From the NCBI GenBank assembly GCA_015061805.1, contig SUVV01000018.1, positions 1 to 52,317 of the forward strand: a stretch of 52,317 nt of DNA. The letters are read 5' to 3'. Shown here in pieces: positions 5,168-52,157 of the stretch. Each line of letters starts with the position of its first letter. The stretch's first letter is position 1. This DNA is from Lentisphaerota bacterium (GTDB lineage Bacteria; Verrucomicrobiota; Lentisphaeria; Victivallales; Victivallaceae). The notes under the pieces are model-generated. The model saw only the letters and a list, made by a program, of their open reading frames with translations, was not told where the DNA came from and did not search any database. The position numbers were made by a program, and so were the translations under genes.

Positions 5168-5897
5168 AGTATTGCTTCGCAATGTGAAGCGTTTGCCTGC
5201 GGCAAACGTGAAGCGCTCACTTCGTGAGTAAGGACATGATTGTGTTGATTTGCGTTGCAAACCAACGTGAAGCGCAGGATAAATCCTGCGTGAAGCATTG
5301 CTTCGCAATGTGAAGCGTTTGCCTGCGGCAAACGTGAAGCGCTCGCTTCGCGAGTAAGGACATGATTGTGTTGATTTGCGTTGCAAACCAACGTGAAGCG
5401 CAGGATAAATCCTGCATGAAGCATTGCTTCGCAATGTGAAGCGTTTACCTGCGGTAAACATGAAGCGCTCACTTCGTGAGTAAGGACATGATAATTTTAT
5501 AATCTTGCCGCGACAGCGGAGCGGAAACTACCCCGCTTTTGTGTCGGTTTGCGCAGCAAACCAACGTGAAGCGCAGGATAAATCCTGCATGAAGCATTGC
5601 TTTGCAATGTGAAGCGTTTACCTGCGGTAAACATGAAGCGCTCACTTCGTGAGTAAGGACATGATAATTTTATAATCTTGCCGCGACAGCGGAGCGGCAA
5701 CTACCCCGCTTTTGTGTTGGTTTGCGCAGCAAACCAACGTGAAGAGCAGGATAAATCCTGCGTGAAGCATTGCTTCGCAATGTGAAGCGTTTGCCTGCGG
5801 CAAACGTGAAGCGCTCGCTTCGCGAGTAAGGATATGATAAGTTTATACTTCCTCTTTTGCTGCGACAACGGAGCGGCAAAATACCCCGCTTTTTTTG
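5157..5897. repeat. Hairpin-string repeat array 1 (five units)
   Basis: Five tandem units are anchored on ATTGCTTCGCAAT at 5171, 5297, 5423, 5596 and 5769. Two periods are 126 bases and two are 173; the longer form adds an AT-rich piece and a CCGC...GCGG segment. Each unit strings together short hairpins joined by GTGAAGC: GCAGGAT/ATCCTGC, ATTGC(TTC)GCAAT, GTTTGCC(TGC)GGCAAAC, CTCAC(TTC)GTGAG and GGTTTGC(GCA)GCAAACC. Paired changes keep the stems: GTTTGCC/GGCAAAC becomes GTTTACC/GGTAAAC, and CTCAC/GTGAG becomes CTCGC/GCGAG. The array sits between the 3' ends of convergent genes. Frames running through it give repetitive peptides but no plausible gene. Confidence 0.92.
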
Positions 5898-5912
5898 AAA
5901 AGGGATGGGGGC

Positions 5913-5968
5913 GTGGGGGAAGGGAAAAACTTTTTTTCCCGTGAAAAAAAGTTTTTCCCTTCCCCCAC
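5913..5968. repeat. 26-bp perfect inverted repeat capping array 1
   Basis: GTGGGGGAAGGG, then AAAAAC and a T-run (5913-5938), pairs perfectly with 5943-5968 across a 4-base loop. A near-identical structure caps the other hairpin-string array at 35608-35661. It ends 14 bases before the 3' end of the minus-strand esterase gene and could terminate transcription there. Confidence 0.85.
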
Positions 5969-12691: not shown

Positions 12692-12736
12692 ATAGTGTAA
12701 CGTGATATGAAAACCATTATCAATGGAGAAATAATT

Positions 12737-13519
12737 ATGACTTGTAAGGATATTTCCTCTGTCCGGTTAACCGGACAGAAGCAGTACTGCTTCACCCTCA
12801 TCGAACTGCTCGTTGTCATCGCCATCATTGCCATCCTCGCGGCTATTCTGCTCCCGGCGCTGCAAGCTGCGCGCGGCAGAGGTATAGCATCTCATTGTGC
12901 AAACAACACCCGTCAGCTGGTCAACGGTCTCAACCAGTACGCTGAAGTCAATGACGGTCATGGTCCCCGCCAGAAAGAGGGAAAAACCGACAACTACATG
13001 TGGGGTTCCGGCAGCGGCCAGGGCAGAGTAGGCCCTTACCTGCAATCCAAGCAGGCATATGATTCCGGAAACAATGTTTCTTACTATTGTTCACCGCTGG
13101 CATTCTGCCCGCTCGGCAGCCGCAGAGGAGAGCAGAAATTCACTGCCAATGATTCAAGTTACTGGGCAAACGGTTTCCTCGGCATTTATCTGGATCTGGG
13201 AGCACAATATATGCAGAAATACAGCAGCGTCCGCTTTACAAGCCAAGTTGCAGTGGTCGCCGAAAGCGGCCCGAAAACGGTTAACAAATACAGCCACCCG
13301 GAATACACCGGCTGCAGCGGCGTAGCCACCAATGACTGGGCTTATTTCAAACATGCGTCATTCCGTCACAGCAAGAGATCCAACTTCGGTTATATGGACG
13401 GTCACGTATCAGCAGTAGGTTTCAGCGATTACGCGCCCGGCACCTGCGGCTATAAATTATCTTTGGACAAAAAGTATCTGTTCCGGGACAACTACAAGCA
13501 AGTCGGACAACTCAACTGA
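12737..13519 (+). CDS. Pseudopilin-like protein with palindromic leader
   Basis: This 260-residue protein has an 18-residue leader ending KQYC, then [16 protein letters not shown] with Glu at mature position 5, [12 protein letters not shown], a Cys-containing helix ([19 protein letters not shown]) and a C-terminal [14 protein letters not shown] motif. This is the H-x9-DG pseudopilin-like family, exported and probably processed by a prepilin peptidase. I chose the ATG at 12737 because GGAGA lies 8 bases before it; the ATG at 12707 has no ribosome site. The residue before Phe is Cys rather than Gly. The leader codons hold two abutting perfect palindromes. It has its own promoter within the carbohydrate-gene region. 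Confidence 0.87.
12758..12793. repeat. Palindrome pair in pseudopilin leader codons
   Basis: A 22-bp perfect palindrome centred on TTAA (12758-12779, half TCTGTCCGGTT) is followed by a 16-bp perfect palindrome centred on GTAC (12778-12793, GAAGCAGTACTGCTTC). They overlap by two bases and end at the FTLIELL codons. The same layout recurs at 37875-37914 and 52058-52097 with different sequences. Confidence 0.9.
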
Positions 13520-37865: not shown

Positions 37866-38651
37866 ATGAAGAATTTACTCCGGCATGCCGGAGTAAAGCA
37901 CGCGTGCTTTACTCTCATCGAACTTCTCGTCGTGATCGCCATCATCGCTATTCTCGCAGCAATGCTGCTTCCGGCGCTTCAGCAGGCGCGCAGACGCGGT
38001 CGGATGATCAGCTGCGCCAGCAATTTGAAACAGTGCGGTCAACAGATCCAGCTTTATCATGGCGATTTCAAAAATATGCCGGTGGACTGCAACAAAGTAG
38101 GTTCTTCTCTGAAAGCGGGTGTCTACTTCATCCTGCAAAAACTTTACGGTACTCACCGTTCTTTGCCCAAAGGCACTGACTGGAATGCCAACCAGAACCG
38201 TATGATCATGACCAACACCCCCTGGGTCTGCCCGGATATGACAGAAAACCCGGCTTCGAGCAGTATATATTCCGGCAGTTATGTCCCGGCAACAATGGCA
38301 TTTGTCGAGATGGTCAACCAGAGTTTGACCGAATTGAAGTATTCCAGCTACGGCGGTTATCCCCGTTACTATGTTGCCAAATGCCGCAAACCCGCCCGGC
38401 AGTTGTTCTATGCGGATCACAATCTGTATGATGGTGCGTTGTATGACTACCGCCGCTTTGTATATGGCGATTCCCAATGTGCGGTATCTTTCCGGCATCC
38501 GAGTTTCAATGCCAACTGTCTGATGGGCGACGGTCACGTCGAACCCTATAACCGCAGCGGCGATGGCAACAACTACTACTTCGCGCCAAACACCAAAGCG
38601 CATTACGAAAACTTCCCGGAATATATGAAAATTGCCGGCAAGAGTAATTAA
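37866..38651 (+). CDS. Pseudopilin-like protein with palindromic leader
   Basis: A 261-residue H-x9-DG pseudopilin-like protein. The 14-residue leader ends VKHAC, followed by [16 protein letters not shown], then [31 protein letters not shown], several scattered Cys, and a C-terminal [18 protein letters not shown] good AAAGGA site precedes the ATG. It is likely exported through a type II secretion or pilus-like system. The residue before Phe is Cys, not Gly. Codons 4-17 are made of two overlapping perfect palindromes. It is monocistronic between its own promoter and that of tRNA-Gln. Confidence 0.88.
37875..37914. repeat. Palindrome pair in pseudopilin leader codons
   Basis: A 22-bp perfect palindrome (37875-37896, half TTACTCCGGCA) overlaps by 6 bases a 24-bp perfect palindrome (37891-37914, half GAGTAAAGCACG). 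The order is TTACTC, GAGTAA, TTACTC, so the middle arm can pair with either neighbour. It ends in the first codons of FTLIELL. Confidence 0.92.
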
Positions 38652-38800: not shown

Positions 38801-38874
38801 AGACCTATGGTGTAACGGTAGCACAAGTGATTCTGGTTCACTTTGTCGAGGTTCGAATCCTTGTAGGTCTGCCA
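38801..38874 (+). tRNA. tRNA-Gln (anticodon CTG)
   Basis: A 74-base cloverleaf with acceptor stem AGACCTA/TAGGTCT, discriminator G and an encoded CCA end. The anticodon loop TTCTGGT sits on the stem AGTGA/TCACT, giving CTG. The T-loop is TTCGAAT. The 3' part from the T-loop on is copied four times in the array behind it. Confidence 0.95.
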
Positions 38875-48786: not shown

Positions 48787-48864
48787 CGGGATGTAGCGCA
48801 GTCTGGTTAGCGCGTCTGCTTTGGGAGCAGAAAGTCGGGGGTTCGAATCCCCCCATCCCGACCA
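48787..48864 (+). tRNA. tRNA-Pro (anticodon TGG)
   Basis: A 78-base cloverleaf with acceptor CGGGATG/CATCCCG, discriminator A and encoded CCA. The anticodon loop TTTGGGA on CTGCT/AGCAG gives TGG. The T-stem is GGGGG/CCCCC with TTCGAAT. Its 3' part is copied twice in the array behind it. Confidence 0.96.
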
Positions 48865-51965: not shown

Positions 51966-52157
51966 ATGACACAAAAGAGAACATTTACTTTGATCGAACT
52001 GCTGGTGAAAAGATCCCATCTCTGCTGTGATCGTGTTTATGGCAAAGAAGAAGGTTTTTCACCTGCCCATGGGCAGGTGAAGCTGTACAGCTTCACCTTA
52101 ATAGAGCTTCTTGTGGTAATAGCCATCATCACTATCCTGCCGGTGCAGAATTTCTGA
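51966..52157 (+). pseudogene. Broken chimeric pseudopilin with two FTLIELL segments
   Basis: GGGAAAG precedes the ATG. The 63-residue product reads [14 protein letters not shown], a 28-residue stretch (KRSHLCCDRVYGKEEG...KLYS), then a second [12 protein letters not shown] and stops at PVQNF. The body of a pseudopilin is missing. The two FTLIELLV copies use different codons, so this is not a fresh tandem duplication but a joining of two leader segments. The second leader carries a palindrome pair. It follows the LacI-type gene by 15 bases. It could also be an intact short peptide, but the abrupt end suggests a remnant. Confidence 0.75.
52058..52097. repeat. Palindrome pair in pseudopilin leader codons
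   Basis: A 24-bp perfect palindrome centred on CATG (52058-52081, half TTCACCTGCCCA) overlaps by 6 bases a 22-bp perfect palindrome centred on GTAC (52076-52097, half GGTGAAGCTGT). The order TTCACC, GGTGAA, TTCACC again gives a shared middle arm, as at 37875. Confidence 0.92.

Follow-up and report, generated by a model that had tools for sequence, protein, structure and literature searches.

Why should perfect palindromes, arranged in pairs, be found in the coding DNA of pseudopilin leaders, directly before the codons for FTLIELL? The question is raised by the window, the whole stretch of 52,317 nucleotides analysed here, which is contig C18 of genome G000 (2.29 Mb, 34 contigs). In its sequence the F codons of three FTLIELL motifs begin at positions 12791, 37908 and 52092, and each is preceded by two palindromes, here called P and Q. 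Upon re-reading of the window sequence these palindromes, first pointed out in a sequence-only reading, proved real; with axes counted from the F codon, the features of the three sites are as follows.

12737..13519, forward strand: site-1 pseudopilin gene, matching PF07963 (N_methyl) above cut-off
12758..12779, no strand assigned: palindrome P of site 1, 22 nt, axis -22
12778..12793, no strand assigned: palindrome Q of site 1, 16 nt, axis -5, its 3' arm entering the F codon
37866..38651, forward strand: site-2 pseudopilin gene, one copy of the unit described below, in frame
37874..37897, no strand assigned: palindrome P of site 2, 24 nt, perfect, axis -22
37891..37914, no strand assigned: palindrome Q of site 2, 24 nt, perfect, axis -5, its 3' arm TTTACTC being the F-T-L codons
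37874..37907, no strand assigned: unit X-P-X'-Q of site 2, 34 bp, with the flanking direct repeat TTTACTC at 37874-37880 and 37908-37914
51966..52157, forward strand: site-3 gene, a truncated pseudopilin reading frame with a leader cassette, at the contig end
52007..52114, forward strand: in-frame cassette of site 3, 108 bp, from the GT of the first FTLIELLV (51984-52006) to the wobble base 52115
52058..52081, no strand assigned: palindrome P of site 3, 24 nt, within the cassette
52075..52098, no strand assigned: palindrome Q of site 3, 24 nt, within the cassette, its 3' arm TTCACCT being the cassette's F-T-L codons

The sequence-only reading held that chance is not a credible origin of this arrangement, and the counts agree: all five window palindromes of at least 22 nt lie at the three sites, whereas 20 first-order Markov simulations gave none, and those of at least 16 nt number nine (six at the three sites) against a simulated mean of one. 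Some details had to be adjusted. The palindromes of site 2 start at base 37874 and not at 37875; the middle arm said to be shared by both palindromes is evident at sites 2 and 3, where P and Q have GAGTAAA and AGGTGAA in common, respectively, but weak at site 1, where they overlap by just 2 nt; and site 3, counted as a third pseudopilin-type gene, is no ordinary one but a 108-bp cassette in a truncated reading frame. The start of the site-1 gene was picked on a preceding GGAGA-type sequence, an in-frame ATG being also present further upstream at 12707. The site-2 protein scores 20.9 bits against PF07963, just below the cut-off of 21.2, and has a weak match to DUF1559. The prepilin peptidase family PF01478 is found in 24 of 24 genomes of the genus, and the combination of an N-terminal methylation motif with a prepilin peptidase in the genome identifies these leaders as those of type IV prepilins or pseudopilins. 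Genes with GH123 and CBM9 domains adjoin site 1, a LacI-type regulator gene precedes site 3, and two tRNA genes were detected with Rfam (window 38801-38871 and 48787-48861), one of them about 150 nt 3' of the site-2 gene.

Leaders across the genus were gathered by the codon pattern of FTLIELL, which misses genes with altered motifs and which matched 57 times in the window's own genome, 155 in G011, 75 in G018, 49 in G003 and 87 in G012. Three genomes of the same genus, G006, G009 and G019 (the last 71% complete), have 1-3 matches versus 29-206 elsewhere, in accordance with either a recent expansion of the family or its loss. The scored set is a part of these matches, with duplicates and near-end sites removed, and comprises 295 leaders from within the genus and 170 from elsewhere; one tally of leaders gives 54 for the own genome, 75 for G018, 91 for G011, 41 for G012, 15 for G003, 15 for other species and 171 outside, and row counts vary slightly by analysis, with 277 leaders in that of sequence freedom and pairing and 291 in the shifted-rule scan. 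When at least 7 of 9 pairs are demanded at an axis, the commonest axes from -60 to +30 in the 295 genus leaders are -5, where 84 leaders pass, and -22, where 80 do, against a median of 0 per axis. Both dyads are present in 73 of the 295, and the pair is thus found in many other leaders of this and of related genomes, so that the absence by which the sequence-only reading would have been refuted does not apply; no outside leader passes at either axis (0/170; 19 from the order, 106 from GTDB and 45 viral). The usual spacing between the axes of P and Q is 17 bp. A looser pair rule, shifted 30 or 20 nt upstream, matched 25 and 15 of 291 genus leaders, respectively, presumably doubled arrays and long cassette hairpins, and when shifted 20 or 30 nt downstream it matched none of the 291.

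P and Q, with one arm in common, make up one unit X-P-X'-Q followed by X; the unit is located after the start codon and ahead of the site at which the prepilin is cleaved. The last X corresponds to the gene's own F-T-L codons, X' is the reverse complement of this last X, and the outer X repeats it directly, in full or in part. With the axes left free, 76 single-copy units were found, 61 of 34 bp, six of 31, four of 32, three of 35 and one each of 37 and 40. The sequence that fills this frame is largely free. Among the 73 leaders with both dyads, the P core comes in 54 different sequences and the Q decamer in 46, which agrees with the earlier claim that sequence changes while position and symmetry are kept, and the closest G003 relative of the site-2 gene (L378; 68% identity) has different palindromes on the same axes. 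Some families of similar pairs do occur within one genome, for example TTCTGTCC...GGACAGAA in G018. The 34-bp pair as a mobile element was set aside as the main reading, since most copies differ and the palindromes of the site-2 relative are different.

The arms, for their part, are closely matched. Leaders picked on P alone (56) show a Q pairing of 8.0 of 9, versus 1.3-3.0 at axes slid by 1-3, and those picked on Q (65) a P pairing of 7.6, versus 2.2-2.9 at slid axes, although the two tests share positions of P and Q and are not fully independent, and shuffled letters pair equally well where the columns are nearly invariant, at 4 of the 12 pairs of Q and 2 of the 12 of P. X' pairs with the F-T-L codons of its own gene at 6.3 of 7 positions, versus 5.2 with those of another gene, and synonymous differences in TTYACN are therefore mirrored upstream. 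Perfect dyads with a fixed spacing, usually of 17 bp between axes, are what operator sites for a dedicated DNA-binding protein would display, and recognition tags of this kind had been suggested; nevertheless, the number of distinct P cores and Q decamers and the different palindromes in the best G003 relative of the site-2 gene leave the suggestion unsupported, and we regard such operators as barely conceivable. A second suggestion was a switch in the mRNA near the start codon, in which P and Q would act as alternative hairpins with a common arm that tune translation. Both do fold well as single strands (z of -2.6, -5.0 and -2.8 at the three sites, with DNA parameters), but the mismatches comprise 16 G-T, 16 A-C and 58 others, with no G-U bias, the centres of P are palindromic in 53 of 73 leaders, so that the loops do not look selected, and there is no Rfam match at the sites, where only the two tRNAs were found in the window. 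Consequently, an mRNA switch is also unsupported and, in our opinion, very improbable; the types of mismatch point to DNA over RNA as the molecule in which the symmetry would be maintained.

The structure of the unit becomes informative when its copy number is considered. A direct repeat of at least 4 nt is found at a spacing of 34 in 35 of 60 single-copy leaders, versus 1-4 of 60 at spacings of 31-33 and 35-37; the 7-mers upstream, counted without a comparison background, are A/T-rich words. Two units with at least 88% identity are present in 17 of the 295 leaders, to which L383, with 29 of 34 positions identical, adds an eighteenth, and the lengths of these doubled units are 31, 32, 34 (13 cases), 35 and 38 bp (two cases). 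Altogether, unit lengths of 31, 32, 34, 35, 37, 38 and 40 bp, none of them a multiple of 3, are seen in the 76 single-copy and 17 doubled leaders of the 295, a regularity weaker than it appears because in-frame indels keep the length modulo 3 and perhaps only two independent classes are represented. Of 60 single-copy leaders, 59 are in frame. All 18 doubled leaders have an open ATG in frame with F after copy one (for example MKSFLPDCSRVKHMC or MIKSASHGKVKQTC), in all 18 the second copy shifts FTLIELL out of the frame of the start codon, and in all 18 the gene body remains open for at least 218 aa. No third copy was found in any of the 18 arrays. In the window's own genome two leaders, L043 with one copy in frame and L004 with two, have the same upstream DNA, start and leader but different bodies, and both are located at contig ends.

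Based on these features, we hypothesize that the palindrome unit is a hairpin-promoted copy-number (phase) switch of pseudopilin genes, a reading for which, from sequence, belief and doubt are nearly balanced, doubt weighing slightly more. A hairpin between direct repeats is a classic arrangement for replication slippage. Hairpins formed by P and Q, or polymerase U-turns at their axes, would cause slippage from one flanking direct repeat to the other during replication, with the gain or loss of a complete unit; two U-turns, at axes separated by 17 nt, would likewise add 34 nt. With one copy, FTLIELL would be read in the frame of the start codon and the gene would be ON; with two copies it would be out of frame and OFF, a change that would follow from a unit length which is no multiple of 3. 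Template switching, by which the arms of inverted repeats are homogenised in yeast coding DNA according to PMC8604942, would copy one arm onto the other, and the arms would thereby stay matched to each other and to the gene's own synonymous codons while the sequence drifts. Slippage and template-switch homogenisation together would explain the matched arms, the free sequence and the whole-unit doublings. We infer that the exchange would be reversible in living cells, that the protein would be lost when the unit is doubled, and that the switch may be of some benefit.

The intact bodies and the two states of one leader in one genome favour a reversible switch, as far as assemblies can tell. The main doubts concern the concentration of arrays in G018 and the ATGs inside them. 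Of the 18 arrays, 15 belong to G018, two to G012 and one to the own genome, and copy states were read from assemblies alone, each genome being one assembly and one per species; it is possible that the excess reflects a peculiarity of G018 or of its assembly. By reasoning, a spurious second copy could arise in assembly only where the longest word used did not reach the length of the single-copy repeat, about 41 nt. An ATG in the FTLIELL frame lies upstream of the array in two of the 18 doubled leaders (L390 and L399, the former with one inside as well), only inside the array in four more, and 6 nt before the F codon in three, while nine have no ATG in that frame, four of these with GTG or TTG. 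The ATGs inside arrays make the OFF state less certain, and this state may be leaky.

The same observations bear on another possibility, namely that the palindromes are selfish or neutral and template themselves, template switching homogenising the arms and sometimes doubling the unit, with doubling as damage or else rescued by an internal start, and with the leader tolerating palindromes because prepilin peptidase removes it. Mutation alone would predict symmetry with free sequence, the lack of a G-U bias and whole-unit doublings, the homogenisation of arms has been described in yeast coding DNA as mentioned above, between two thirds and three quarters of the leaders in the genus are without the unit, and one half of those with a doubled unit contain at least one ATG in the frame of FTLIELL. 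However, doublings that break the frame should decay, yet each of the 18 bodies is intact, those of 15 genes at once within G018 included. Moreover, palindromes of at least 14 nt away from FTLIELL in the own genome, examined at the FTLIELL loci and in the window with AT-rich ones unlisted, are single and unpaired. We consider selfish or neutral palindromes of this kind rather unlikely.

Site 3 introduces another feature of these leaders, as its palindromes are part of a cassette. Cassettes of 84-354 bp in the genus occupy the V codon of FTLIELLV and bring their own FTLIELLV. Two FTLIELL motifs 84-354 bp apart are found at 67 distinct places among the genus loci, 65 of them in frame. Many of these 65 are copies of a few families; none has an internal stop, whereas stops occur in 64 and 57 of the 65 when the remaining forward frames are read. 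The exceptions to the in-frame rule are a masked stretch (L348) and a cassette of G018 (L441), of the family KRSHLCC, with 142 = 108 + 34 bp, which holds the unit in doubled form and is out of frame. The codons of the first motif are specific to the gene, and the second motif is nearly constant within a cassette family; cassettes which lack an intact first motif usually show a decayed one, as judged by eye. Left and right junctions are both located at the GT of V, 21-23 nt 3' of the position where the F codon begins. Of the wobble bases that follow these GTs, the left one depends on the cassette family, being A for SKTC (18 of 19), T for TTAQ (6 of 6) and G for DTVI (6 of 6), and the right one differs between genes. 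Insertion is thus precise and at one site, where cassettes also stack head to tail (L007, L290, L295, L314 and L183). Loci in the genus with such cassettes include the following.

Window 51984-52114, forward strand, and loci L007, L009, L020, L022, L028, L032, L055, L059, L290, L295 and L314: genus cassette loci

Among the 24 closest cassette pairs (0.91-0.99 identity), one consists of two cassettes of one gene, and the bodies of the other 23 align at 0.68-0.79, versus a mean of 0.71 and a maximum of 0.76 for 60 shuffles, a maximum that three of them exceed. Two species share a KRSHLCC cassette with 96% identity. One cassette-bearing gene of the own genome has a relative in G018 (59% identity) with a plain leader, an empty site; the G003 relative (84%) has a cassette. 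Outside the genus, in-frame inserts are found in L134, L183 and L185 (Lentisphaeria assemblies), L150 (Victivallis sp.), L173 and, with 78 bp, L128, the first motif being sometimes altered (FTLIELLA, FTLIELFA). L173 belongs to Victivallis vadensis DSM 14823 (NZ_QEKH01000020.1, 9045-9460), with a 396-bp in-frame insert between two FTLIELL motifs; as this is a named strain, such inserts are not confined to metagenome assemblies. Removal of the cassette peptide by prepilin peptidase is plausible because the peptidase family is present in all 24 genomes. The hairpin-rich part of the own cassette has REP-like copies at 24 more places in the genome, including window 5878-5954, none of the 24 within 600 nt of an FTLIELL match. 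In the TQSA-ending cassettes of G011 (L293, L295, L313 and L348, for example) a hairpin has its axis at +2, with the F-T-L-I-E codons as one arm.

Could the pair then be the recognition end of such mobile leader cassettes, a single-stranded DNA hairpin read by shape, with lone pairs as cassette remnants? Single-stranded hairpins read by shape are known from attC sites and from the ends of IS200/IS605 elements. Cassettes clearly move, the KRSHLCC family (108 bp) ends in P and Q, its 84-bp form ends in a shortened pair, and other families end in other nearby hairpins with axes at -31, -35/-38 and +2. However, the junction lies away from the palindromes, many leaders with P and Q, window sites 1 and 2 included, are devoid of a first FTLIELL copy, and the candidate movers do not track the number of FTLIELL matches, which here stands in for cassettes, as these were counted in few genomes. 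Y1 transposase (PF01797) is found in 9 of 24 genus genomes, the own copy having three stops, with none in G012, G013 and G018; the IS110 domain DEDD_Tnp_IS110 (PF01548) is found in 4 of 24, the window's genome not among them; and tyrosine recombinases (PF00589, subfamilies pooled) are found in 23 of 24, with 1-8 matches each and no clear relation to FTLIELL number. As cassette movers, these three families show no clear relation to the cassettes by this measure. An autonomous element at an FTLIELLV site was sought at L017 and L024, where the former proved to be a broken gene and the latter runs off the contig. We consider the pair as a cassette end improbable.

Related to this is the earlier suggestion that the palindromes are recombination sites which shuffle pseudopilin bodies behind leaders. 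Neighbouring pseudopilin genes at L378 (G003) and at L344 (G011) have nearly identical palindromic leaders and different bodies. The suggestion stands in so far as the same or nearly the same leader precedes different bodies (L004 and L043; the neighbours at L378) and cassettes move between leaders, but fails in that the cassette junction lies elsewhere than at the palindromes and that no matching recombinase turned up among the families searched.

The tandem doubling with loss of frame and the in-frame cassettes had both escaped the sequence-only reading. Taken together, the copy-number switch and the cassettes allow a broader reading, conceivable although with doubt clearly prevailing, in which the prepilin leaders of Lentisphaeria shelter DNA and host both a self-templating double-palindrome switch and geneless mobile cassettes. 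If so, the leader would offer sequence that can be cut off the mature protein; the double palindrome would be conserved as geometry, would count its own copies and would switch tens of pseudopilin genes independently; and cassettes would insert at a single codon, stay in frame, restore FTLIELLV and be removed at the protein level. The hairpin with which each cassette ends on its 3' side may be their common recognition element. In G018, about 34 leaders bear the unit (19 single and 15 doubled), and one genome could then carry tens of independently switching pseudopilin genes. To our knowledge, the phase switches described so far rely on simple repeats, invertible segments or methylation states. 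A switch defined by geometry and free in sequence would escape repeat scans that seek a common motif, and would explain how near-perfect palindromes persist and diverge in coding DNA. The cassettes represent mobile DNA at one codon of one gene family, perhaps tolerated because the encoded part should be cleaved.

Judging by titles and the openings of abstracts among the matches listed, the open-licence literature holds no apparent prior report of either feature, and several known systems bear a partial resemblance. Integron cassettes stack head to tail at one site and their 3' attC is a structured, sequence-variable hairpin. The leader cassettes likewise stack at one site with a 3' hairpin, but are translated as part of the host gene, and no association with an integrase was found. 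REPINs (PMC3116915) are also paired palindromes, and the hairpin of the own cassette is likewise repeated at other places in its genome; in contrast to the genus pairs, which are intragenic and sequence-free in genomes where Y1 is rare or broken, they are extragenic, conserved in sequence and tied to RAYT. A REPIN/RAYT system was rejected given the limited occurrence of PF01797 and the three stops in the own copy, as was an IS110-type bridge-RNA element given the absence of PF01548 from the window's genome and its presence in only four genomes.

Rickettsia palindromic elements, of 105-146 bp and found in many different genes according to PMC2229807, are palindrome-rich short DNA fused in frame within protein genes and in this respect comparable to the leader cassettes, which nonetheless sit at one codon of one gene family and restore the motif into which they insert; the unit, with its 34 bp, is much shorter and disrupts the frame on doubling. 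As an element of this type the unit was rejected, considering that it has no conserved repeated sequence and that palindromes away from FTLIELL are unpaired. PARCELs, coding tandem repeats with dyad symmetry which PMC2996958 presents as probably mobile, encode an in-frame domain of 25 residues, whereas the genus unit has no conserved peptide and a length that is no multiple of 3. Perfect inverted repeats inside translated genes are also known from the mitochondria of Nematomorpha, where, according to PMC6649704, both arms encode conserved protein, while the genus pair lies in a removable leader and undergoes tandem doubling.

A parallel also exists with contingency loci, where it matters how many times a short repeat occurs close to the beginning of a surface-appendage gene. 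In pil1 of Streptococcus gallolyticus (PMC3894217), pilus expression depends on how many GCAGA repeats are present in a leader peptide; this repeat has 5 bp, lies in a separate leader peptide and acts via a transcription terminator. Unlike it, the genus unit is a double palindrome of 31-40 bp with gene-specific sequence, present in one or two copies in the prepilin's own leader. Its place in a region read in frame, its length, no multiple of 3, and its doubled variants, which leave an intact gene out of frame, suggest that the palindrome unit may work like a contingency locus, a likeness of behaviour which we propose rather than membership in that class.
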